NCBI RefSeq assembly: GCF_002381345.1
Contig: NZ_CP020660.1
Coordinates: forward strand, 868,001 to 932,000
DNA: 64,000 bases
Reading direction: 5' to 3'
From: Candidatus Enterovibrio altilux
GTDB lineage: Bacteria > Pseudomonadota > Gammaproteobacteria > Enterobacterales > Vibrionaceae
Positions 33,829 to 58,360 of the stretch are shown here, piece by piece (position 1 is the first letter of the stretch; every line of letters begins with the position of its first letter). Below the pieces are notes generated by a model. That model was not told where the DNA came from. It saw only the letters and a list, made by a program, of their open reading frames with translations, and made no database searches. The translations under genes and the position numbers were made by a program.

Positions 33829-34479
33829 ATGACACAGATAAAACAGCTTTTTGTAAATAACCTAAAATGGTCAAAGACTATAAAAAAAAATAATTCAGCC
33901 TATTTCTCTGAACTCGCCAAAGCTCAGCATCCTGAATATCTTTGGATTGGCTGCTCAGACAGTCGGGTTCCAGCAGAGCGTTTAACTGGGCTTAATTCGG
34001 GAGAACTTTTTGTTCACCGCAACGTAGCAAATCAAGTTATTCACACTGATTTAAATTGCCTATCAGTCATACAATACGCCGTCGACATACTCAGAGTCAA
34101 GCACATCATAATATGCGGCCACTATCGTTGTGGTGGTGTACATGCTTCTATTGAAAATTTAGAACTTGAGCTCGTCAATAATTGGCTTCTTCACATTCGT
34201 ACTCTTTATCATAAACACAATCGTCATCTCAGTACATTGAGTTTGGAGGAACAAGGCAACTTGCTGTGCGAGATAAATGTGGCTGAACAAGTATATAATT
34301 TAGGAAATTCCATAATTTTACGTGATGCGTGGGGACGAGGACAGGATATTCAAATTCATGGGTGGTTTTACGATATTAATGACGGTATATTAAAAGACTT
34401 AGGCATCACAGCAAACAATTTAGAAATGTTAGAAGCTGGTTATTCATCGGTAATGGCACAAATAATGCTTAGCAACTAA
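33829..34479 (+). CDS. can: Beta-class carbonic anhydrase
   Basis: Zinc enzyme that interconverts CO2 and bicarbonate in the cytosol, supplying bicarbonate for carboxylases. Zinc ligands and dyad are at the E. coli positions: Cys42 and Asp44 in GCSDSRVP, His98 and Cys101 in CGHYRCGG. Length is 216 residues (E. coli 220). I choose the ATG at 33829 because GGAGGGAG lies 5 bases before it; a TTG at 33817 only extends into that site. The IS relic upstream ends at 33814, so the native promoter has been displaced and transcription must start within or beyond the relic. Confidence 0.97.
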
Positions 34480-34743
34480 CCTTAATATGATTATAAGCGA
34501 AATTAAGATGATAGTAAATAGTATAGTTAGATTGTGTGTTCAATGAATGTGCCAATCTCTTTATCATGCATTTTAGTTGATTTTTAGTATGCTAATATTT
34601 TTTAAGTTTTATTTTTTAATGCAAGTTGTACTTTACTATCGGGATTCAGATTAGGAAACAAGGCTCTTTACTACTGATTTTTGTTACTCCAGACTGAATA
34701 ACTGTGCAAAAATACACCATCCCAGCGCTAGAAAATATAAAAT
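34480..34743. other. Gap between can and the argR pseudogene
   Basis: AT-rich. The only feature is a short plus-oriented IS right tip at about 34630-34665 (cagattaggaaacaagg). No gene and no clear terminator seen. Confidence 0.45.
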
Positions 34744-35235
34744 ATGCGTAATTCAGATAAATAAGATCAATGAGTAAAAACCTTTAAAGCAATTTTAAAA
34801 GAAGGAAAATTTAGTGCTCAGGGTGAAATTATTGATGTATTAAAAGCACAAAGCTTTGAAAACATTAATCAGTCGAAAATTTTACGTATTTTTACTAAAT
34901 TTGGAGCAGTACGTACACGTAATGCAAAAACGAACATAGATTACTGTCTACCTATAGAACTCAATGTACCGATCATCAACAGCTCACTTAAAGAACTAGT
35001 GATAAACATTGATTACAATGAAACTCTTGTTGTCGTTAATACTGGCTCAGATGCAACATAATTAATCGCTCGTCTACTCGATTCTTTAGGAAAAGCTGAA
35101 GGTATTATGGGTATCGTTGCAGGAAATTATACATTTTTCATCACGCCAACGAGCGTAATCACCACTGAAGATCTTTTTCATACTGTAGGCAACCTATTCG
35201 AGACTACACCCGCTAACATGTCATTTACATCCTCC
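34744..35235 (+). pseudogene. argR: Arginine repressor, inactivated by stop codons
   Basis: One frame carries an almost complete ArgR with nonsense codons. It begins MRNSDK, then TAA (34762-34764), D-Q, TGA (34771-34773), then [39 protein letters not shown] (the DNA-binding region, with NINQSKVSRML changed at the recognition helix), TRNAK, NIDY, then TAA at 35059-35061 in the arginine-binding domain, followed by LIARLLDSLGKAEGIMGIVA. There is no frameshift. The end runs into an IS tip at 35236. ArgR would repress arginine synthesis genes. In Vibrio it is divergent from or next to mdh, which is not in this window. The decay is recent enough that alignment is trivial. Confidence 0.9.
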
Positions 35236-36261
35236 AGCTTTATTTCTTAATTCGAGTCACGTTGCAAACTTCAACATGATTCACTATTAAACAATCGCTT
35301 TCGTATTAGATATCCCTAACCATGTCAGCTTATTTCACGGTTTTATCACGACATCAGTTTCTCTAACTTAGCCATTCTAATCCCTTAAGCCCAATATCCC
35401 TCCCAGTAGTTTTTTAACTAAAAAGATTGCCGTCTTTAATAAGGGACGTTTATGACAACTATGCCTCGTTTTACAATGCTTATTTAAACCATATAACTGC
35501 TAGTAGCTAACCGTTCAATTAAGCAACTTATCTTATTCCCAACAAGTTGCTCTTTTTCTTGGTGACATGAGTAAAACCACTCGTTTAATTCAAACGGTTT
35601 CGTAACAGTGTCTGGTATCATAAGCACCACCGTATGATATTTCCTTGCTGATCTGGCGAGTATGTTTACGCAAATGAGGTAGCACTGCACCGTCAGTCAC
35701 ATTTGATGCACTTAACTCAGTAGCAATCATTTCATCTATATGTATATCGACTGCTAAATGTAACATGCGCCATACTCGTCGTTTTCCATCAATACCATGC
35801 TTCTTTACTTGCTGTTTTCCTTCACCGTAGAACTTTGAGTCTGTATAATCAATCTTCGGTACCGTATGGTTCCTTGAGTCTTTATTTGGAACGCGATGTT
35901 AAACGTTTTCGTTCGCTTGTTCATGCATAAATCATGAGGACATAACAACAGCAGTGAACAAATTTGAAAATAGAATTAATGAATTTTTGCAGACCTCTAG
36001 ATAACATTAAAAGTATACATTTAACCATAAAGACCGTCGTAATGGCTAAGTCGCCAAATAAACAAAGTCTTTCATCATTACTCTGCTTAGTTTGATTTCA
36101 TAGCTAGATGACCTTCTGCATCCATCCATAATGTTAGTGAGTCACTATTAATTAAAGTTTGATTATGGTGTTTCCAGTTGGTTATTTGGTAACAAAGCTT
36201 GTTCATAGATCTAAATATCTATCTGTTTAGAGCATAGATTGATAATTTAGGAAACAAAGCC
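35236..36261 (-). mobile_element. Full-length IS903-like relic
   Basis: About 1,026 bp with both tips: agctttatttcttaattcgag at 35236 and aatttaggaaacaaagcc at 36261. Transposase on the minus strand, broken. It follows the argR pseudogene directly. Confidence 0.84.
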
Positions 36262-36356
36262 ATTTGTAAGATCATAAGTTCATAATCAACGAAAGTTGCG
36301 TACGCACTAAAGAGAATTTCGACCTTTTACTATTATAAACACTGCTTTTTTTATCT

Positions 36357-37808
36357 TTACATTGACTCCGTACCACCAACAGTCATTAAGTCCAGCTTCA
36401 ATGTAGGCTGCCCCACACCCACTGCAATACTTTGACCTGCTTTTCCACACACGCCAACACCACGGTCCATTGCTAAATCATTGCCAACCATTGATATTTG
36501 CTGCATGGCTTCCATTCCGCTACCGATCAAGGTTGCGCCTTTAACTGGTCTTGTCACTTTACCATTTTCAATCAAATAGGCTTCACTAGTTGAAAACACA
36601 AACTTTCCGGAGGTAATATCAACCTGACCACCACCTAAATTAGATGCATACAAGCCATATTCAACACTGCCAATAATATCTTTTGGGGTACTCTGACCAG
36701 ACAACATATATGTATTAGTCATACGAGGCATAGGTAAATGCGCATAAGATTCACGGCGACCATTCCCAGTTGGTGCAACACCCATTAAATATGCATTGTG
36801 CTTATCTTGCATGTAACTTTTCAAAATACCGTTTTTAATCAATGTATTGTATTGACCTGGCACACCTTCATCATCTATGTTTAATGAACCACGACGGCCC
36901 TGCAGCGTACCATCATCCACAATAGTACAAAGCGGCGATGTCACTTGCTGGCCTATTTGACCAGAGAAGACTGAAGACTTTTTACGATTATAGTCACCTT
37001 CTAAGCCGTGACCGACCGCCTCGTGAAGCAATACACCCGGCCAGCCTGCTCCCAGTACCACAGGCATTGAGCCTGCTGGCGCACCTTTCGCATTAAGATT
37101 CACCAACGCCTGACGAACTGCTTCATCAGCATAGTTTAGTGCAATCATCTTACTATTTTCTTCAATCAAAAAATACTGATAATCAAAACGGCCACCACCA
37201 CCGGAAGAACCACGTTCACGACTGCCATCTTTCTCCACCAAAACACTAATAGATAACCGTACCAATGGACGTATATCTGCTGCATAAGTGCCGTCTGTTG
37301 CGGCAATAAGCACTTGTTCATACACCCCACTGATGCTGATAGACACTTCTTGGATTAATGGTTCTTTAGCCCTAATATAAGCATCGACTTCCTGAAGCAA
37401 TGCCATTTTATCTTCTCTGTTCATACTTTGAAGCGGGTCAATGGCATGATAAATAGTTGGATATTGACGCGTTATAAACGCAGGCACTTTAAGTATTCCA
37501 CCCTTGTCTGCGATACTACTTGCTGCTGTGGTACTCTGCATTAACGCATCAGCATTAATTTGGTTTGAATAAGCAAAACCTGTTTTCTCACCACTGATAG
37601 CACGCACACCAACACCACTGTCAATATTAAACGAGCTATCTTTAATTATGCTGTCTTCAAGCACAAGCGATTCATGCCAGCATGACTGGAAGTAAACATC
37701 CCCGTAATCGATATTTCTTGTTGTTAGATGTTCTAGTGTTTCACCAAGTTGACTCTTACTAACACCCGACAGGTGCAGCATCATTTCTTCGACATGTTCC
37801 AGACTCAT
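36357..37808 (-). CDS. tldD: Metalloprotease TldD
   Basis: Subunit of the heterodimeric TldD/TldE (PmbA) cytosolic metalloprotease, which trims peptides and is needed for microcin and CcdA processing. The zinc site [11 protein letters not shown] is intact near residue 265. The N-terminal region ([20 protein letters not shown]) and the glycine-rich C-terminal [20 protein letters not shown] match the family. Length is 483 residues, as usual. The partner gene pmbA is not in this window. The ATG at 37808 has AAAGAG upstream. Intact in a stretch where all surroundings are IS relics. Confidence 0.96.
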
Positions 37809-41323: not shown

Positions 41324-41956
41324 ATGACTAGTAACGTAAAAAATAATAGACGTATAACGTTAGCTTGGAGCGGCGCGTCTGGCGCACCTTATGGTGTTCG
41401 TTTGTTGAAATATTTGTTGGCAGCAGAGTATGAAGTATTTCTTCTTATCTCTTCTGCTGCGCGCATGGTGCTTGCGACTGAGCATGCCTTAACACTGTCC
41501 TCGGACTCCGATACAGCCAAAGAGACACTAACAAAACATCTGAATGTGTCAACTAAGCAACTCATTGTATGTGGAAAAGAAGATTGGTTGTCGCCCGTCG
41601 CATCCGGTTCGGCGGCTCCAAGGAGAATGGTAGTGTGCCCTTGTTCTACGGGATCGCTTGCGGCAATTGCAAATGGAATATCGGATAACCTCGCTGAACG
41701 TGCGGCTGATGTGGTGTTAAAGGAACGTGGTCAACTGTTGTTGGTAGTACGTGAAACGCCATTTTCGACGTTACATTTAGAAAATATGCTGAAGCTATCA
41801 ACTATGGGAGTCACTATTATGCCAGCTGCACCGGGTTTTTATTATCAGCCACAAACGATTGATGATCTAGTGAATTTCATGGTCGCACGTATTTTAGATC
41901 ATCTTGGTATTGAACAAAAATTGGTACCACGCTGGGGATATGATCAACGTAAGTGA
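41324..41956 (+). CDS. ubiX: Flavin prenyltransferase UbiX
   Basis: Makes prenylated FMN, the cofactor of the UbiD decarboxylase in ubiquinone synthesis. The N-terminal flavin loop is [16 protein letters not shown], the central region [24 protein letters not shown] contains the phosphate-binding residues, and the prenyl-site region is [18 protein letters not shown]. Length is 210 residues, normal for the family. A GGAGC ribosome-binding sequence lies 5 bases before the ATG. UbiD is not in this window. Aerobic quinone synthesis seems to be retained. Confidence 0.96.
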
Positions 41957-50142: not shown

Positions 50143-50211
50143 ATGTGTGTAGTTTTTACGGTTGAATTTTCATTGTGCACATTAGTTCATAGTATTGAAA
50201 TAATTCTATGA
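50143..50211 (+). CDS. 22-codon leader ORF coupled to sypM
   Basis: ATG 50143 has a strong ribosome-binding sequence (AAGGAG, 50131-50136). The frame MCVVFTVEFSLCTLVHSIEI ends with I-L and TGA at 50209-50211, which overlaps the sypM ATG (50208) as ATGA. The sypM start itself has no ribosome-binding sequence, so its translation probably depends on ribosomes finishing this ORF. The peptide is hydrophobic with two cysteines. It could be a leader peptide, or what remains of the gene that preceded sypM (sypL in V. fischeri) after deletion. Confidence 0.5.
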   Translation: MCVVFTVEFSLCTLVHSIEIIL

Positions 50212-50930
50212 ACATGCAAACAACCCACCAATGGATTAAACATAGTTCCAATCCAGTCGCTCGTAGTCTTTTTAAAATCCTGCAGCTCATGATTCAAATA
50301 AGTGTACCAGCGCCAAAAATCATCACATCTCCACTTTATGCTGCCACAATCACCATTATGAAATTTTGGACTACCCTCACACGTGTATTATGGTGGACAC
50401 CTATTTTTAAAGGTCGCATCAATCACATTGGTAAAGGCTTTTATCTTTATGGCGGCATGCCTTTTGTCAGTGGATCTATTTCCTTAAAATTTGGTGATAA
50501 CTGTCGCGTATCTGGTCAAACGACCTTATCGGGAAGGTCAACTAGCTCCGCATGCCCATTGCTAACAGTGGGAAACAATGTAGATATAGGATGGCAAACT
50601 ACCATTGCTGTCGGCACCAAAATTATAATCTATGATAACGTGCGCATCGCTGGTTGTACTTTTCTTGCGGGATACCCCGGTCATCCTATGAACGCTTCAG
50701 ATCGCGCTGCAGGATTGCCTGAGTTGGATAGCCAAGTTGGTGACATTATTTTGGAACGTGACGTATGGCTTGCAACAGGTGTATCCGTTTTGGCTGGTGT
50801 CACAATAGGACAAGGTACGATTATTGCTGCTGGTAGTGTGGTGACCTCTGATTTACCTCCTTTTGTAATAGCTGGCGGTATACCTGCAAAAATACTCCGC
50901 ACATTAACAACCGAGGAACAGAAGAGATGA
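50208..50930 (+). CDS. sypM: Hexapeptide-repeat acyltransferase, SypM-like
   Basis: O-acetyltransferase of the left-handed beta-helix type, which would acetylate a sugar of the polysaccharide or its lipid-linked precursor. Residues about 80-225 show the hexapeptide repeats (ISLKFGDNCRVSGQTTLSG, VGNNVDIG, NVRIAGCTFL, DVWLATGVSVLAGVTIGQGT, IIAAGSVVTSDLPPFVIAGG) and the terminal IPAKILRTL. The expected catalytic histidine would be in AGYPGHPMN. Residues about 20-65 are partly hydrophobic. It overlaps both the leader ORF (ATGA) and the next gene (4 bp). The order M-N-O..P-Q-R and predicted functions match sypM-sypR of V. fischeri, the basis for the symbol. Confidence 0.82.
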   Translation: MNMQTTHQWIKHSSNPVARSLFKILQLMIQISVPAPKIITSPLYAATITIMKFWTTLTRVLWWTPIFKGRINHIGKGFYLYGGMPFVSGSISLKFGDNCRVSGQTTLSGRSTSSACPLLTVGNNVDIGWQTTIAVGTKIIIYDNVRIAGCTFLAGYPGHPMNASDRAAGLPELDSQVGDIILERDVWLATGVSVLAGVTIGQGTIIAAGSVVTSDLPPFVIAGGIPAKILRTLTTEEQKR

Positions 50931-52051
50931 ATAGAGATCTGATTGTTTTTGGAGAAGACTGGGGAGGACTACCTTCCAGCACCCAGCATCTCATCCAACA
51001 TCTTGCGCCGCAACGTAAAGTGATTTGGATTAATTCTATTGGTTTACGCCAACCACGCTTGTCTTTCCATGATATAAAACGTGCATGGTATAAATTAATA
51101 GTACCCACTGTCATTGATGCCTCTGTTCAAATAACCAACACACCCCACAATATTACAGTGGTCAATCCAACCACATTGCCCGCACCAAGAGCACAATACA
51201 GCCGTAAGTTAGCAGCAAATTGGTTGACGAAACAATTGTTACCCATCATTAAGCAAACAAAACTACACAACCCTATTCTATGGACATCAATTCCTACTGC
51301 TGTAGATATGGCTAACAAATTAGGCGCAAAATCTTTAGTGTATTACTGCTGTGATGATTTTTCATCACTGGTCGGCGTCGATCATGACACAGTCACGAAA
51401 CGTGAAGTAGAACTGATTGAAAAAGCTGACCTCATTTTAGCATCTAGCGAAATATTGTTTAATCGTTTCCCTAAATCGCGCACACATTTATTGCCACATG
51501 GTGTTGATTACAAATTATTTTCCACACCTGTACTACGCGCTGGAGATATGCCTTACAGCCAACGTCCCATTGCGGGATTTTATGGCTCATTATCCGAATG
51601 GTTAAACTACAGTTTGTTAGATGCTGTTATTTCTGCATTACCAAATTGGGGCTTCGTCTTTATCGGCCAAATATGTAAGCGCGCTGTCGCACTCAAGGAA
51701 CATAACAACGTGATACTGCTTGGCTCTCGTCCTCATCATTTACTACCAACTTACAGCCAACACTGGACAGCAAGCTTGTTACCATTCACAGATAATGCAC
51801 AAATTAATGCATGTAATCCGTTGAAACTTAGAGAATACCTCGCAACCGGCATACCCGTAATCAGCACACCTTTCCCTGCACTAAAAAGTTACTCTGATTT
51901 TGTATCCAAGGTGAAAACTCCACACGAAATGATTCAAGCGCTAATAAAAGCACAATTCAAACGCCGCAATGAAGCACAACAAAATGCTGTTAAGTCTCAT
52001 ACATGGGCAGCCAGAGCAAAAGAGCTAGAGAGATGGCTGAGTACCTTATGA
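50927..52051 (+). CDS. sypN: Glycosyltransferase, SypN-like
   Basis: GT-B fold glycosyltransferase (GT4-like, in the TuaH/GumK style) that would add a sugar to the lipid-linked repeat unit at the cytoplasmic face. The N-terminal part has FGEDWGGLPSSTQHL and SLVYYCCDDFSSL. The C-terminal nucleotide-sugar domain has LLPHGVDYKLFS, AGFYGSLSEW, and the acceptor region LPFTDNAQINACNPLKLREY followed by LATGIPVISTPFPAL, where E/K residues of the GT4 signature lie. 374 residues. The start ATG overlaps the sypM stop by 4 bp (ATGA), and its own stop overlaps the next start in the same way. These overlaps indicate one translationally coupled operon. Confidence 0.82.
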   Translation: MNRDLIVFGEDWGGLPSSTQHLIQHLAPQRKVIWINSIGLRQPRLSFHDIKRAWYKLIVPTVIDASVQITNTPHNITVVNPTTLPAPRAQYSRKLAANWLTKQLLPIIKQTKLHNPILWTSIPTAVDMANKLGAKSLVYYCCDDFSSLVGVDHDTVTKREVELIEKADLILASSEILFNRFPKSRTHLLPHGVDYKLFSTPVLRAGDMPYSQRPIAGFYGSLSEWLNYSLLDAVISALPNWGFVFIGQICKRAVALKEHNNVILLGSRPHHLLPTYSQHWTASLLPFTDNAQINACNPLKLREYLATGIPVISTPFPALKSYSDFVSKVKTPHEMIQALIKAQFKRRNEAQQNAVKSHTWAARAKELERWLSTL

Positions 52052-53544
52052 ACTCGCTAACGTATAAGTTTCTCATTTTACTTGATGGTGCATGGCGTCG
52101 ACGCTATGTCATTATGCTGCCTATCATTATATTGCCTTTAATTGGCATTGCTATCGGTTTACTCAGCCCGAAACAATTTAATTCTCATACCAGTATGCTT
52201 ATTCAAGAAACTGCCAACATGAATCCATTTTTAGAAGATCTCGCAGTATCCTCTATGATGAAAGAACGCTTTAATGGACTTCAAACTTTATTACATAGCC
52301 GCCATATTCTCGGTAAAGTTGCATTAGATCGAAAACTGATCACCGAAGAGTCGGAACTTAAGCTAATTGATGAAACCATTGAAACCCTTTCAAACGGGTT
52401 ATCCATGTCTACCATTGGCAGAGATGTTATTCGTATCGATTTCCAATTTAATCAATCCGAAGGGATGAAAGAAACGTTAGAGATTGTCAGTCAACATGTC
52501 ATCGAAGAATTACTCGCTCCCGAACGTTCTTCCATGAAAGACTCCAGTTACTTTTTATCCGAACACATTAAGTTCCGTCGTGAAGACCTCAATAAAGCAG
52601 AAACTGTACTATCAAAATTTAAGAGCCTTAACTCTGATGGGCTCCCAGCACTTCAATTGGCAAACCTCTCCCGTATTGAAGCTTTAAAGCAACGCTTATC
52701 TGAAAAGGAAGCCGAAAAAGCTGGTGCACAACGTGGGCTGGGTGGCCTTGACCAACAACTTTCCACCACCAACCCCATACTTGGTAAAATTGAAGAGCAG
52801 ATCGTAAAAATACGCAGTGAGTTGGTACTACTCAAAGCACGCTATACTGACCAGCATAGCCTTGTAAAAAACTCAATGCGCAATCTACGTCGTTTAGAGG
52901 AACAACGTTCGCAGTTATTATCCAATACTTCGCAAACTGTAAATGCCGACCAGCTTTGGGCCATCGCGAGCAGCACTACCATGGCAACAGAGGGCGAGTC
53001 CCATCAACCACTATTAATTTCTCAACTTGAAAATCTACAACTCGCACGTAGCACAGTAGCAATGCTCGAAGAAGAAACATCTAGCCTAAGAAACATGATC
53101 ATTGAACTTGAAGTCAAAACTAGTAAATCAGGAATAAAAGAGCAAAAAATTAAAAAACTAGAGCGTGATTTAGATGTGAAACGTGAACTATTTAATGAAT
53201 TGCTTGAACGCTATGAAATGGCTAGACTAACCAGCTCACTGAGCGTGTTCGAGCAAGACAAACGTATCAAAGTCATAGACCTTCCATTTTCACCAGCTAC
53301 GCCCAGTAACATGCCTCTGACGATCTTTACTGTCGCGGGTTTAATTGGCGGTATATTTCTTGGCTGTGGAGTGTCCATGCTTCTTGAGCTAACAGACACA
53401 ACTATTCGTAGAATTTCAACCTTAGAAAAAATTACTAGCGCCCCAGTTTTGACGCGTATACCTGAGTTTAGAAACGTACTCATACCATCCCCAAATATTA
53501 CAAACACTATATTTAATGGAAATAAACATATTGCCATTAAATAA
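52048..53544 (+). CDS. sypO: Polysaccharide chain-length determinant, SypO-like (Wzz family)
   Basis: Polysaccharide co-polymerase that sets chain length. The protein has two membrane segments (about 18-38, YVIMLPIIILPLIGIAIGLL, and about 430-450, TIFTVAGLIGGIFLGCGVSM) flanking a large periplasmic coiled-coil domain, the Wzz/GNVR topology. The proline-rich stretch before the second membrane segment (LPFSPATPSNMPL) is typical. No Walker kinase domain follows, so it resembles Wzz proteins without the tyrosine kinase. I start at ATG 52048 (498 residues), overlapping the sypN stop (ATGA); a frame extension to 52003 is unlikely. It corresponds to SypO by position. Confidence 0.85.
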   Translation: MNSLTYKFLILLDGAWRRRYVIMLPIIILPLIGIAIGLLSPKQFNSHTSMLIQETANMNPFLEDLAVSSMMKERFNGLQTLLHSRHILGKVALDRKLITEESELKLIDETIETLSNGLSMSTIGRDVIRIDFQFNQSEGMKETLEIVSQHVIEELLAPERSSMKDSSYFLSEHIKFRREDLNKAETVLSKFKSLNSDGLPALQLANLSRIEALKQRLSEKEAEKAGAQRGLGGLDQQLSTTNPILGKIEEQIVKIRSELVLLKARYTDQHSLVKNSMRNLRRLEEQRSQLLSNTSQTVNADQLWAIASSTTMATEGESHQPLLISQLENLQLARSTVAMLEEETSSLRNMIIELEVKTSKSGIKEQKIKKLERDLDVKRELFNELLERYEMARLTSSLSVFEQDKRIKVIDLPFSPATPSNMPLTIFTVAGLIGGIFLGCGVSMLLELTDTTIRRISTLEKITSAPVLTRIPEFRNVLIPSPNITNTIFNGNKHIAIK

Positions 53545-53595
53545 AAAAATACATGCTCCTATATAATCACATTTAAATAACCAGGTACATCATCT

Positions 53596-55956
53596 GTGAA
53601 ATATTGGCTACTACTTCTATTACTGATGTTTACTGCACCAGCATATCCCAAAATTCGTATTAATAAGTCCGAGCTAAGCATAGTGTCTGAAAGTAGCCTG
53701 TTAATTATTCAAGGTACAAATTTCTCAAACTCAGACGTCATACTGGTAATTCGAGCTGATGATAGCCAAGACCCAGGATATGCTGACCGCGCTAATATAG
53801 AGAGAGTTATTCCAAAAGGAAAGTTTGAGCTGCAAGTGTCATTCGCCAGTTTAAGAACACCCAGTGGGCGCCAACTAAAACTCGATACTCTTGAGCAAAT
53901 CATTCTCTTTCCTGGAGAAATAACACCAGGTTTTACCCTTATCTCTGTGCAAGTTAAAATCCCGGAGCCATTAGGCAAAAATGTCTATGCGTGGGATCTT
54001 GGTCCAGCCGAAAGCGCTATCTGGCCTGGGTTTAAACCACTCACCATCAATATGGGTCTTCTTTCAGGGAAAAACATGACACCAGTGGACCGTAGTGCAA
54101 AAATGCAAGCGGCTGACAGTCTGACCTGCGATGGAATCCGTGGAATTGAGACTGCCAGCCTCCCTTTGCCTATAGGTAATTGGCAAATCACCTTGTGGCT
54201 CAGAGATGCAGGGGAATGGGAATACCTTCCTCACCCGCTTAAACGAAAAATTTACGCAAACGGAAAACGTATTTACGTGAAAGACCTGACACCAAGTGAA
54301 TGGATACAGCGTATTTATCTTGGGCGTCGAGATATTGAAGCTACCCCAGCTAGCAGTAGTTGGGAGCTTTTCGGTAAAAGAGAAAGTGACCGTGTTACAT
54401 TTGATATTTATAGTGATGGTACCCCCATTATTCTGCGCCTATACGGTGATTCCACGGATGCGCAATTTATCAGTGCCATTCTGGCTATTCCCAGCAAAAA
54501 TGCACTGATCCTTGACATACTCACGCGTCAACGTAAGGCATGGTGGGAAAAAAATTGGGCAATCGCAAACTGGAAAAAATGGCCTACTGGTCAACCAAGC
54601 TTAACCATAGAGAACGCCAAATTACAAGCTGCACCTGGCACCTCTGTTACCGCCATATTCGAGTTCGAACAAGGCAATCTCCCTGGTGCACCCATGATTA
54701 TGCTCAGTCAACCCACCCTAAACAACCACTCAATTCCGGCACATTGGCACTGGAGTCAATGGCAGCTGACCCGCACGCACCTTGCATCCACACTATTAGA
54801 AGCACACGACACATATTTGCGGCATGGATTAATGCCAGCGAACAAAGGTGTAGCCATGCCCCGCCAATTAGTTGTTCGTTTTGATTTACCTCAAGGCCTC
54901 GCAAAGGGTTTATATAAAGGTGAGATGCGCATAATGATACCAGGCAAAAATTTTACCCTTCCTTTTCACATTAATGTGGTTGACGCTGTACTCCCAGAAC
55001 TCACGAAACCTATTGGTATTTATTTAGAAAAACCTGTCCATTTCGGCTGGTTTAAAGAATTGGAGATGCTAGGTGACCAAGCAATGATATGTGACCTTCG
55101 TTTTTTACGTAAATTAGGTTTAACAGGAATATCTCCTCCCTACCCAACACCAAGTGATGATGAAAAACGTATTAAATTTAATAGATTATCAGGCGAACTC
55201 AATAAGCTGGGTTTTGTAGATTCCATGGCGTATACATCAGCTAAACGGCTTAGTCAAAGATTAGGAGCAGGTAATGCCGCTAATATTGTTGCTGAAATAG
55301 AGGCAGAATACAAACAAAAATTGCAAAATATGCCATACTGGTCAATTGCCGATGAACCCAGCAATCCGGGTAACACTGATTTATTTAAAAGCATCCACCG
55401 ATACTTTACTCTGTTCGCACCAACAGCCAAACTAGCCGGACACTTAAACCACTCTGCCGACAAAGCATACCTTCCTATGTTCGATATGATCCTCATTAAT
55501 GACGGTTATGGAGCGAATAAAAAGGACATTCAAGACGCACAAGATCAAAACCTTAAAGTATGGCTATACAACATGCCTAACCCTCGAGCTGCTGCTGGGT
55601 TCTACCTTTGGCAAACTCAAGCCGATGGATTTATCCAATGGCACGGCCGCATGCCTACTGCTGACCCTTTTGATCCAACCGATGGACGCGAATTTGATGT
55701 GCAATTTTTGTATCCTTCAGAAAACCCATGTCCACAGGAACCAGATATAAATATACTGCTTTATGACATCATGAATGGCATTGTCGATCATCGCTGGATG
55801 CTTTGGTTACAACAGAAAGCAAATTCGAACAGTAATGCCAAAGTTCTACTGAACCAACTACGTCATGAGATCCCTAGCACATGGAATGCAATGCGAGACA
55901 TCGATGATTCTCTCCTTTCTCAGTGGAGGCAACAAATCATCAATTTAGTAGATTAA
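53596..55956 (+). CDS. Secreted glycoside-hydrolase-like protein (GH123/DUF4091-like)
   Basis: A 786-residue protein with a signal peptide (MKYWLLLLLLMFTAPAYP) and a modular body. Residues about 18-340 are beta-rich carbohydrate-binding-like. Residues about 340-460 resemble the N-terminal beta-sandwich that precedes GH123-type domains. Residues about 460-720 form a TIM-barrel-like region with YWSIADEPSNPG, where adjacent Asp-Glu is placed as in the catalytic pair of GH123 substrate-assisted hexosaminidases. WLYNMPNPRAAAGFYLWQTQ and ADGFIQWHG match the end of DUF4091/GH123 barrels. The start is GTG 53596. It lies between sypO and sypP, where V. fischeri has no such gene as far as I recall. A periplasmic polysaccharide-trimming or release enzyme is the likely role. 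Fold-level call only. Confidence 0.6.
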   Translation: MKYWLLLLLLMFTAPAYPKIRINKSELSIVSESSLLIIQGTNFSNSDVILVIRADDSQDPGYADRANIERVIPKGKFELQVSFASLRTPSGRQLKLDTLEQIILFPGEITPGFTLISVQVKIPEPLGKNVYAWDLGPAESAIWPGFKPLTINMGLLSGKNMTPVDRSAKMQAADSLTCDGIRGIETASLPLPIGNWQITLWLRDAGEWEYLPHPLKRKIYANGKRIYVKDLTPSEWIQRIYLGRRDIEATPASSSWELFGKRESDRVTFDIYSDGTPIILRLYGDSTDAQFISAILAIPSKNALILDILTRQRKAWWEKNWAIANWKKWPTGQPSLTIENAKLQAAPGTSVTAIFEFEQGNLPGAPMIMLSQPTLNNHSIPAHWHWSQWQLTRTHLASTLLEAHDTYLRHGLMPANKGVAMPRQLVVRFDLPQGLAKGLYKGEMRIMIPGKNFTLPFHINVVDAVLPELTKPIGIYLEKPVHFGWFKELEMLGDQAMICDLRFLRKLGLTGISPPYPTPSDDEKRIKFNRLSGELNKLGFVDSMAYTSAKRLSQRLGAGNAANIVAEIEAEYKQKLQNMPYWSIADEPSNPGNTDLFKSIHRYFTLFAPTAKLAGHLNHSADKAYLPMFDMILINDGYGANKKDIQDAQDQNLKVWLYNMPNPRAAAGFYLWQTQADGFIQWHGRMPTADPFDPTDGREFDVQFLYPSENPCPQEPDINILLYDIMNGIVDHRWMLWLQQKANSNSNAKVLLNQLRHEIPSTWNAMRDIDDSLLSQWRQQIINLVD

Positions 55957-55977
55957 CGAAAAAATTGCTCAGATAGA

Positions 55978-55992
55978 CTCTCAAAATGAAAA
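55978..55992 (+). promoter_or_regulatory. Possible SypG-type enhancer site upstream of sypP
   Basis: CTCTCAAAATGAAAA matches five of six fixed positions in the first half and the TG of the second half of the SypG enhancer consensus as I recall it (TTCTCA-N3-TG). It lies about 85 bp upstream of the -24 element, a normal distance for a sigma-54 activator. Confidence 0.4.
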
Positions 55993-56061
55993 AATACATA
56001 ATTGCTAAATTGCATCTAAATTTATTCTTTTAATATCAATTAATTAATTACATAAAAATTT

Positions 56062-56077
56062 TGGCACACCTTCTGCT
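56062..56077 (+). promoter_or_regulatory. Sigma-54 promoter upstream of sypP
   Basis: TTGGCACACCTTCTGCTT has GG at 56063-56064 and GC at 56075-56076 with the 10-base spacing of the -24/-12 consensus (TGGCAC-N5-TTGC). It lies 37 bp before the sypP ATG, so transcription would start about 25 bp upstream of it. V. fischeri also has a sigma-54 promoter at sypP. Confidence 0.72.
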
Positions 56078-56113
56078 TTGCTTCAAGCATCTACCTAAAT
56101 ATTAAAGGCTTCA

Positions 56114-57181
56114 ATGAAAACAATCATTCAAGTAGTACAACACTTAAAACCGGGTGGAATTGAAGTAATGGCTCTTGAATTAATGCGATTTTCTAATTAT
56201 AAAAAATGTATGAAAATAATTAGCTTAGAAGGTAATAAATCGAAAGCAATTAAAGCATGGCCTCGTCTTAATACATTACAAAATAAACTAATTTTTCTCA
56301 ATAAATCTGAAGGTTTTTCACTGTCTTTGATACGTCGATTAAACAAACTATTTGTTGAACTAAGCGCAGATATTATACACACTCACCACATTGGCCCATA
56401 TTTCTATGCAGGTATAGCTTCACGTTTAGCTGGGGCATCACTCATCCATACTGAACATGATGCATGGCATTACAGCGACAAGCGACATCAATTATTACAC
56501 AAAGTCATCAGCATGATTACAACACCTAAATTAGTTGCAGACGCAGATATCGTTGCTAACGCAGTAAATGCCATGTCTGGAACGTCTAATATTCAAGTGA
56601 TTAAAAACGGTGTAGACATCGACTTGTATTCACCTGGTGATAAAAACAAAGCTCGCGACTGTCTAAACTTACCACAGGATATGAAACTCATTGGTACAAG
56701 CGGTCGTTTAGAAGACGTTAAAGGCCATCGCATATTAATTGAAGCCATGATGTACTTACCATTAAGTACCTACCTTGCTATCGCAGGAATAGGCTCACTT
56801 GAAAATAAATTACGCGAACTAGCTAGTAATCTCAACGTAGCTGAACGTGTTCGTTTTTTAGGCTATATTGATAACATGCCTCGCTTCTACCAAGCGCTCG
56901 ATCTATTTTGCTTACCATCCTTCAATGAAGGCTACCCACTTGCACCTCTTGAAGCACAAGCGTGTGGTATCCCTACCGCCGTTACCAACGTTGGTGGCGC
57001 CACAGAAACACTGTGCCCACGGACAGGCGTCGTGTTAAAAGCAGGTGATGCTGAAAATATGGCAACAAAGATTTCACTTCTATTTAATCAATGCTTGGCT
57101 ATAAGCCCACGTCAATTTGTTACTTCAATGGCTGACATTCGCACAATGGCGAGTGCTTACGATGCCCTGGTAGAGGGGTAA
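56114..57181 (+). CDS. sypP: Glycosyltransferase family 4, SypP-like
   Basis: GT4 glycosyltransferase for a polysaccharide repeat unit. N-terminal domain: VQHLKPGGIEVMALEL and IIHTHHIGPYFYAGIASRLAG. C-terminal domain: NGVDIDLYSPGDK, TSGRLEDVKGHRILIEAM, and the GT4 signature LFCLPSFNEGYPLAPLEAQA with the two Glu of the E-x7-E motif, then CGIPTAVTNVGGATE. Length is 355 residues. AAAGG lies 5 bases before the ATG. Preceded by a 157-bp gap with a sigma-54 promoter, and followed by sypQ after 3 bp. Confidence 0.86.
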   Translation: MKTIIQVVQHLKPGGIEVMALELMRFSNYKKCMKIISLEGNKSKAIKAWPRLNTLQNKLIFLNKSEGFSLSLIRRLNKLFVELSADIIHTHHIGPYFYAGIASRLAGASLIHTEHDAWHYSDKRHQLLHKVISMITTPKLVADADIVANAVNAMSGTSNIQVIKNGVDIDLYSPGDKNKARDCLNLPQDMKLIGTSGRLEDVKGHRILIEAMMYLPLSTYLAIAGIGSLENKLRELASNLNVAERVRFLGYIDNMPRFYQALDLFCLPSFNEGYPLAPLEAQACGIPTAVTNVGGATETLCPRTGVVLKAGDAENMATKISLLFNQCLAISPRQFVTSMADIRTMASAYDALVEG

Positions 57182-57184
57182 AAC

Positions 57185-58360
57185 ATGGAGAATCCCTTAA
57201 TTTTTTGGTTTATAGCCATCAGTACTTTATTGGTAATTTACCATCACCTTGGCTACCCCCTATTGCTGAAGATACTAGTGTACTGTTTTTTTTCAACACA
57301 TGAAGGGTTAATACCTCCTATTCGTGGCTACAGAAACACAAAAGCAGATAATATTCTACCTACCATTGCCATACTGATGCCAGCTTATAACGAGGCGCAA
57401 TGGATAGCAGATAAAATACGTAATCTCGCTAGCGTGGATTACCCAAACAACAAATTACGTGTAATCGTCGTCTGTGATGGCTGTTCAGATGATACAGCAC
57501 AAATCACAAGACAAACAGGCAAAGAAGATGCTTGTAAACATCTTGACATAACCGTCGTTGAATACGCCATTAATGAAGGCAAAGTATCCATTATTAATAA
57601 GTCTATGTCTTTAGTACACGAAGATATTGTCGCCATGAGTGACATATCATCTCTCATTTCAATTGATGCACTTTTAATTGCATCCAAACACTTCGAAAAT
57701 CTGAGCGTAGGCGTGGTAAACAGCTGCTATCACTTGTTATCACCTACCAACGGCGAAAAAAAATACTGGGACTACCAAAATACACTGCAACACCGGGAAG
57801 CCAAAATGGGAGCAACATTAGGAGCGCATGGAGCTCTGTATTTAATACGACGCCGTCTTTTCGCACCACTGGCTGCAGATACCATCAATGATGATTTCGT
57901 GCTGCCAATGAGCATTATGGTTCAGGGTTATCGCGTCAATAGTGATGACACAATTAATGCAATAGAACTAGAACCCACGAATGCTAACCAAGATTTTAAT
58001 CGCCGCATCCGCATCGGTGCAGGCAATTATCAACAACTGATCCGTTTGACGGCACTACTAAACCCAAAATACGGAGGCGTGGCATTCACATTTGCATCAG
58101 GTAAAGCACTTCGCGTTGTAATGCCATTTTTCATGCTGATTGCTTTAGGGGGATGGATGTGGTTGGCACAATATCATATATTATTCGCCATTGGCACAGC
58201 AGTTCAATTGTTTATTTATGCAGTTGTTGCCGCAATTACCATGCTAAACGTAGCGCCGAAGAACACCTTAATCGTAACTCTTTGTTACTTAGTTTCCGGT
58301 CATGCCGCCAATATGATTGGGACTCTTAAATACATTGTCAGTCCTAAATCCTGGCGTTAG
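57185..58360 (+). CDS. sypQ: Membrane glycosyltransferase family 2, SypQ-like
   Basis: Processive-type GT2 enzyme (cellulose-synthase-like) that would extend the chain or repeat unit at the inner membrane. An N-terminal membrane segment (about 5-25) is followed by the GT-A domain with ILMPAYNEAQWIADKI, VIVVCDGCSDDT, VAMSDISSLIS in place of the D-x-D motif, INDDFVLPMSIM as the acceptor aspartate loop and RRIRIGAGNYQQLI as the R-x-x-R-W-like motif. Three or so membrane segments follow (about 300-380). 391 residues. GAGGGG lies 6 bases before the ATG. Matches SypQ by order and type. Confidence 0.86.
   Translation: MENPLIFWFIAISTLLVIYHHLGYPLLLKILVYCFFSTHEGLIPPIRGYRNTKADNILPTIAILMPAYNEAQWIADKIRNLASVDYPNNKLRVIVVCDGCSDDTAQITRQTGKEDACKHLDITVVEYAINEGKVSIINKSMSLVHEDIVAMSDISSLISIDALLIASKHFENLSVGVVNSCYHLLSPTNGEKKYWDYQNTLQHREAKMGATLGAHGALYLIRRRLFAPLAADTINDDFVLPMSIMVQGYRVNSDDTINAIELEPTNANQDFNRRIRIGAGNYQQLIRLTALLNPKYGGVAFTFASGKALRVVMPFFMLIALGGWMWLAQYHILFAIGTAVQLFIYAVVAAITMLNVAPKNTLIVTLCYLVSGHAANMIGTLKYIVSPKSWR

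Follow-up and report, generated by a model that had tools for sequence, protein, structure and literature searches.

The bacterial symbionts of fish light organs are among the closest described systems for the locus analysed here. 'Candidatus Enterovibrio luxaltus' CC26, which we take to be the source of this DNA, is a symbiont of the anglerfish Cryptopsaras couesii and was reported to carry 785 pseudogenes and 7 complete amino-acid pathways, as against 20 in free-living Enterovibrio (PMC6020299). The same account gives 2,645,619 bp in 39 contigs for 'Ca. E. escacola' MJ02, and 1,112,309 and 1,015,921 bp, with 23 and 13 pseudogenes, for the flashlight-fish symbionts. Neither arginine nor argR occurs in the main text of that paper or of PMC6773444. 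In the titles and abstract openings listed by literature searches, argR was not named for anglerfish or flashlight-fish symbionts, and nothing usable appeared on a link between ArgR, LuxR and bioluminescence.

Reed-beetle symbionts offer a second comparison. Their arginine pathway is described as eroded and incomplete, with only carA and carB, and in this they resemble the bacterium studied here; unlike it, they keep argR (PMC12508126), so a bacterium can lose the pathway and still retain the repressor.

The window, by which we mean the whole stretch of 64,000 nucleotides that was analysed (C1:868001-932000), comes from a genome of 2,143,356 bases in 4 contigs (G000), of which contig C1 makes up 1,604,691 bases. 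Open reading frames of at least 150 aa cover 47.9% of its bases, versus 71.7-86.1% in four stretches taken from three relatives. Within it lies an argR gene which is almost certainly a unitary pseudogene. The genome is the reduced one of a symbiont from the light organ of a ceratioid anglerfish, and the gene probably owes its state to ordinary, largely neutral decay after arginine auxotrophy.

Structure of the argR locus

The positions of the features are given in Table 1. Translation from the start codon reads MRNSDK*DQ*VKTF... (asterisks are stops), and after codon 106 the frame meets its next stop at 35248-35250. When this translation was searched with Pfam profiles, its stops masked as X, both ArgR domains were matched above their curated cut-offs: PF01316 with E 6.3e-15 and 55.1 bits (cut-off 27), PF02863 with E 1.1e-12 and 48 bits (cut-off 25). 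Residues 1-153 of the ArgR of one relative, L021, align by tblastn to 34744-35202 with 69.3% identity (E 5e-68). Both domains of an ArgR protein are thus present, and an uninterrupted frame of about 156 aa is absent. The preliminary description had called the gene dead on account of three nonsense codons, TAA, TGA and TAA, and had held that single-base changes can explain them; both statements are borne out, since the stops fall at codons 7, 10 and 106 and each is one substitution away from a codon that some relative uses there.

Table 1. Features of the argR locus, in window coordinates
Feature	Position	Strand	Basis
argR pseudogene (homologous extent, ATG to displaced ancestral stop)	34744..35216	+	Pfam PF01316 and PF02863; alignment with 15 intact relatives
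In-frame TAA, codon 7	34762..34764	+	One sense residue in 15/15 relatives
In-frame TGA, codon 10	34771..34773	+	One sense residue in 15/15 relatives
In-frame TAA, codon 106	35059..35061	+	One sense residue in 15/15 relatives
Codons 128-129, Asn-Tyr here, Asp-Asp in 15/15 relatives	35125..35130	+	Alignment
Net 2-base insertion relative to relatives, within this stretch	35199..35210	+	At 35199-35201 in 13/15 alignments
Remnant of argR upstream region, alignable to that of relatives	34666..34743	+	blastn match of L021 and L022 begins at 34666; upstream alignment

An ArgR_C match is present in 17 of the 18 genomes of the genus, presumably Enterovibrio, when this one is counted; the exception is G005. 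Fifteen of the 16 matching relatives were used for comparison, and in all of these full-length cases argR is an intact, open gene of 156 aa; L009, whose genome is listed as 87% complete, was left out: from a late start it measures 94 aa, and its open frame runs for 128 aa with no stop codon. The window copy shares with the genes of the other genus members the start, both domains and an alignable upstream region, but where they are open it has three stops, a shifted end and altered key residues. The genome holds a single ArgR-like place: no second copy was found by profile search with PF01316 (E <= 1) or with PF02863, so the intact duplicate which the preliminary description had named as a possible objection did not come to light. 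A search of the genome contigs with the masked argR protein as query found no relative; the query may have decayed too far for the patterns of that search.

The same description had stated that the gene was broken without a frameshift. This is correct to about codon 152, up to which the frame is unbroken, and fails beyond it, where, owing to a net 2-base insertion near 35199-35210, the former stop codon at 35214-35216 is no longer in frame. When the part from about codon 127 onward was aligned with free end gaps, 13 of the 15 relatives gave a single 2-base insertion at the position listed in the table; the two most divergent, L016 and L017, gave 2 bases at 35209 together with two compensating 1-base gaps upstream. 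A multiple alignment agrees with a 2-base insertion at the 3' end. In pairwise alignments with forced ends, L002 shows the insertion and L008 and L014 scatter their gaps, and none of the three is gapped before base 456. Homology to the gene extends to 35216; what is read from 35217 to 35250 lies beyond the old gene.

The surroundings of argR were also compared. In L021 a gene that we take to be mdh-like adjoins argR; the window is without one (tblastn with the L021 gene gave no match in the window), and directly upstream of the dead argR, where L021 has the mdh-like gene, stands an open carbonic anhydrase gene at 33829-34479 (+; Pro_CA, 172.9 bits). An open ubiX-like flavin prenyltransferase gene at 41324-41956 (+) is on the same strand as argR here, and near argR but on the opposite strand in L021, L022 and L024, which indicates that the argR neighbourhood has been rearranged. 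Downstream, about 1 kb (35250-36350) contains short ORFs only, the longest of 68 aa, and may hold further gene remains; beyond it is a PmbA/TldD-type gene at 36357-37808 (-). Farther along, an ORF run at 50208-58360 (+) with glycosyltransferase, hexapeptide-transferase and weak Wzz-like matches is perhaps a surface polysaccharide cluster; one of its ORFs, of 786 aa at 53596-55956, matches no Pfam family.

Decay beyond the stop codons

The stops are not the only lesions. Among the first 150 alignment columns, 118 are invariant in the 15 relatives; the window copy keeps 87 of these and changes 31, by the 3 stops and by 28 missense differences, to which the shifted end must be added. All 15 relatives have Ser-Arg at 47-48, residues that we presume to contact DNA as in E. 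coli ArgR, and the window has Leu-Arg. The Asp-Asp pair at 128-129, also replaced, presumably corresponds to arginine contacts of the E. coli protein. The locus has, in sum, the features of a unitary pseudogene: a single copy, intact orthologues, several disabling lesions and relaxed constraint.

Differences from the relatives' consensus are distributed over the three codon positions as 36/16/77, and 88 of the 129 run from GC to AT, with 16 from AT to GC. We simulated neutral decay with 60 substitutions, a number that matches the observed second-position changes, under an assumed GC-to-AT bias and transition rate. The simulation predicted 16.7 second-position changes (16 observed) and 89.9 of the 118 invariant columns kept (87 observed), and at least 3 stops arose in 26.4% of the 500 runs, so that a gene body with three stops and no indel is unremarkable. 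The first 150 codons or so are free of indels against 13 of the 15 relatives, a little tidy for some 60 neutral substitutions, and to this small extent the count speaks against neutral decay.

Under this model, some 57 of the 77 third-position changes would be older than the loss of argR. The dominance of changes at this position suggests that the gene was under selection for much of the history of the lineage and died fairly late, although this two-phase reading is itself a model. The dN/dS ratios of the window copy versus relatives, 0.056-0.145 in the 9 defined comparisons (0.003-0.07 for L008 versus the other 14), are low, as expected if most of the divergence predates the loss; because dS was infinite (saturated) in 6 of the 15 comparisons, we set these ratios aside and relied on codon positions.

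The arginine pathway and the distribution of ArgR

The preliminary description had expected arginine genes to be either constitutively expressed or lost. For four of them it is the latter, and constitutive expression does not apply: judged from sequence searches, argC, argF, argG and argHA are absent from this genome and from the reduced genome G005. For argG, G000 gave only 22.7 and 14 bits (cut-off 268) and G005 nothing, with matches above the cut-off in all four larger-genome relatives examined (genus members of 3.6-5.7 Mb). For argHA, the fusion protein of G009 (625 residues) as query was matched only in part in G000, at 25 bits, and not at all in G005; residues 1-625 were matched in G007 and 1-623 in G016, the two relatives searched. 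For argF, a single match was obtained in G000 (142 bits) and in G005 (135 bits), both short of the cut-off of 281. Both G009 and G016 have an argF above it, and their second match, under the cut-off, is at the level of the G000 and G005 match. For argC, the best matches were 30.8 bits in G000 and 15.9 bits in G005, neither above the cut-off, which was passed in both G009 and G016 (the G016 match contains one TAA).

The weak matches to arginine enzymes in G000 were traced to QueC, MnmA, PyrB (with PyrI beside it), a split AspA and Asd, and were rejected as homologues. The aspA-like gene (L034:1348-2550, minus strand; G000:C1 at about 950455-951171, outside the window) is divided by an in-frame TAA into two abutting ORFs, and is another gene broken by a stop without evident frameshift. 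A DNA search with the argCBGH stretch of a relative was empty in G000 and G005; it had no positive control, and absence of argB is not claimed. A strict ARG-box pattern gave few sites, namely (sites/backwards control) 3/0 in G000, 1/4 in G005, 1/1 in G009, 2/1 in G007 and 4/1 in G013.

PF02863 has a match in 293 of 296 genomes of the family, presumably Vibrionaceae; the 296 were sampled from a larger group, and each has a completeness of 90% or more. The three without ArgR_C are G005 (2.6 Mb, 40 contigs), G189 (1.1 Mb) and G190 (1.0 Mb), which in size fit fish light-organ symbionts, putatively 'Ca. E. escacola' MJ02 for the first and 'Candidatus Photodesmus' for the other two. Like G000, G005 is a reduced genome of the same genus that lacks the four arginine genes; unlike G000, with its remnant, it has no recognisable argR (nothing with PF01316 at E <= 10 or with PF02863 at E <= 0.01). 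G189 and G190 are likewise reduced, but belong to another genus and are much smaller. The match in G000 is the weakest ArgR_C match in the sample (E 5.8e-13), all other matching genomes having E 1.9e-18 or better; stops in ArgR_C genes are visible only among the matches listed. A genome of 2.6 Mb from another genus, G018, has kept ArgR, which means that small genome size alone does not predict the loss.

Alternative explanations and meaning

Could a functional ArgR still be made, or was the gene never broken? Translation through the stops by suppression or recoding would take advantage of a frame that is otherwise open to about codon 152. It would have to deal with stops of two kinds, TAA and TGA, and the suppressor tRNAs for which the preliminary description proposed to look were not seen: among the 37 tRNAs identified, the anticodons tta, cta and tca are all missing, and with them any tRNA for TAA or TGA (ARAGORN on RF00005 matches; the scan covered tRNAs regular enough to match RF00005, which tRNA-Sec may not be). 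For comparison, 36 tRNAs are reported for CC26 (PMC6020299). Even a protein read through in this way would have Asp-Asp 128-129 and Ser 47 changed and its C-terminus shifted, and we consider readthrough to a working repressor extremely unlikely. No more weight can be given to a truncated piece that still works, such as a DNA-binding domain translated from a start within the gene. Codons 11-105 are indeed stop-free and contain most of the N-terminal domain, but after codon 1 in-frame ATG, GTG or TTG codons occur only at 86, 122 and 159, none of them ahead of that domain, and no in-frame product exceeds 47 aa, the length obtained from codon 122. That sequencing or assembly errors created the stops in an intact gene might be argued from the reported coverage of CC26, only 14x (PMC6020299); every one of three stops, the 2-base insertion and 28 missense differences at invariant columns would then have to be an artefact, the genome has lost four pathway genes besides, and the chance of this is in our view negligible.

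A different question is whether selection in light-organ symbionts favoured the loss of ArgR instead of merely tolerating it. The distribution in the family may be cited for it, with ArgR_C missing in only 3 of 296 genomes, all of a size that fits fish light-organ symbionts, and with the match in G000 the weakest. The substitution pattern, however, fits neutral decay, and loss of the pathway explains the distribution without selection, which leaves favoured loss very improbable, if somewhat less so than the rescue of a functional protein. Under the reading that we prefer, largely neutral decay following arginine auxotrophy, arginine supplied from outside would have allowed the biosynthetic genes to be lost; with the pathway gone, the repressor would have been left with little to control, and selection on it would have lapsed; and point mutation biased from GC to AT would then have eroded the gene. 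That the pathway went before its repressor is part of what we infer.

The loss of four arginine enzymes together with the repressor points to arginine obtained from the host or the environment. The argR gene described here is one well-preserved step of a known process, a pseudogene of the ordinary kind in a symbiont genome that is shrinking. Its wider setting invites a more speculative suggestion, which we put forward tentatively and consider possible though on the whole unlikely. ArgR would be near-universal in the family and, within the 296-genome sample, missing or visibly broken only in dedicated fish light-organ bacteria, caught in mid-decay in the present case, and its repeated loss would reflect a bargain of arginine for light with the host, separately evolved in anglerfishes and flashlight fishes. 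The family-wide pattern could become a simple test of which regulators go once a symbiont is fed.
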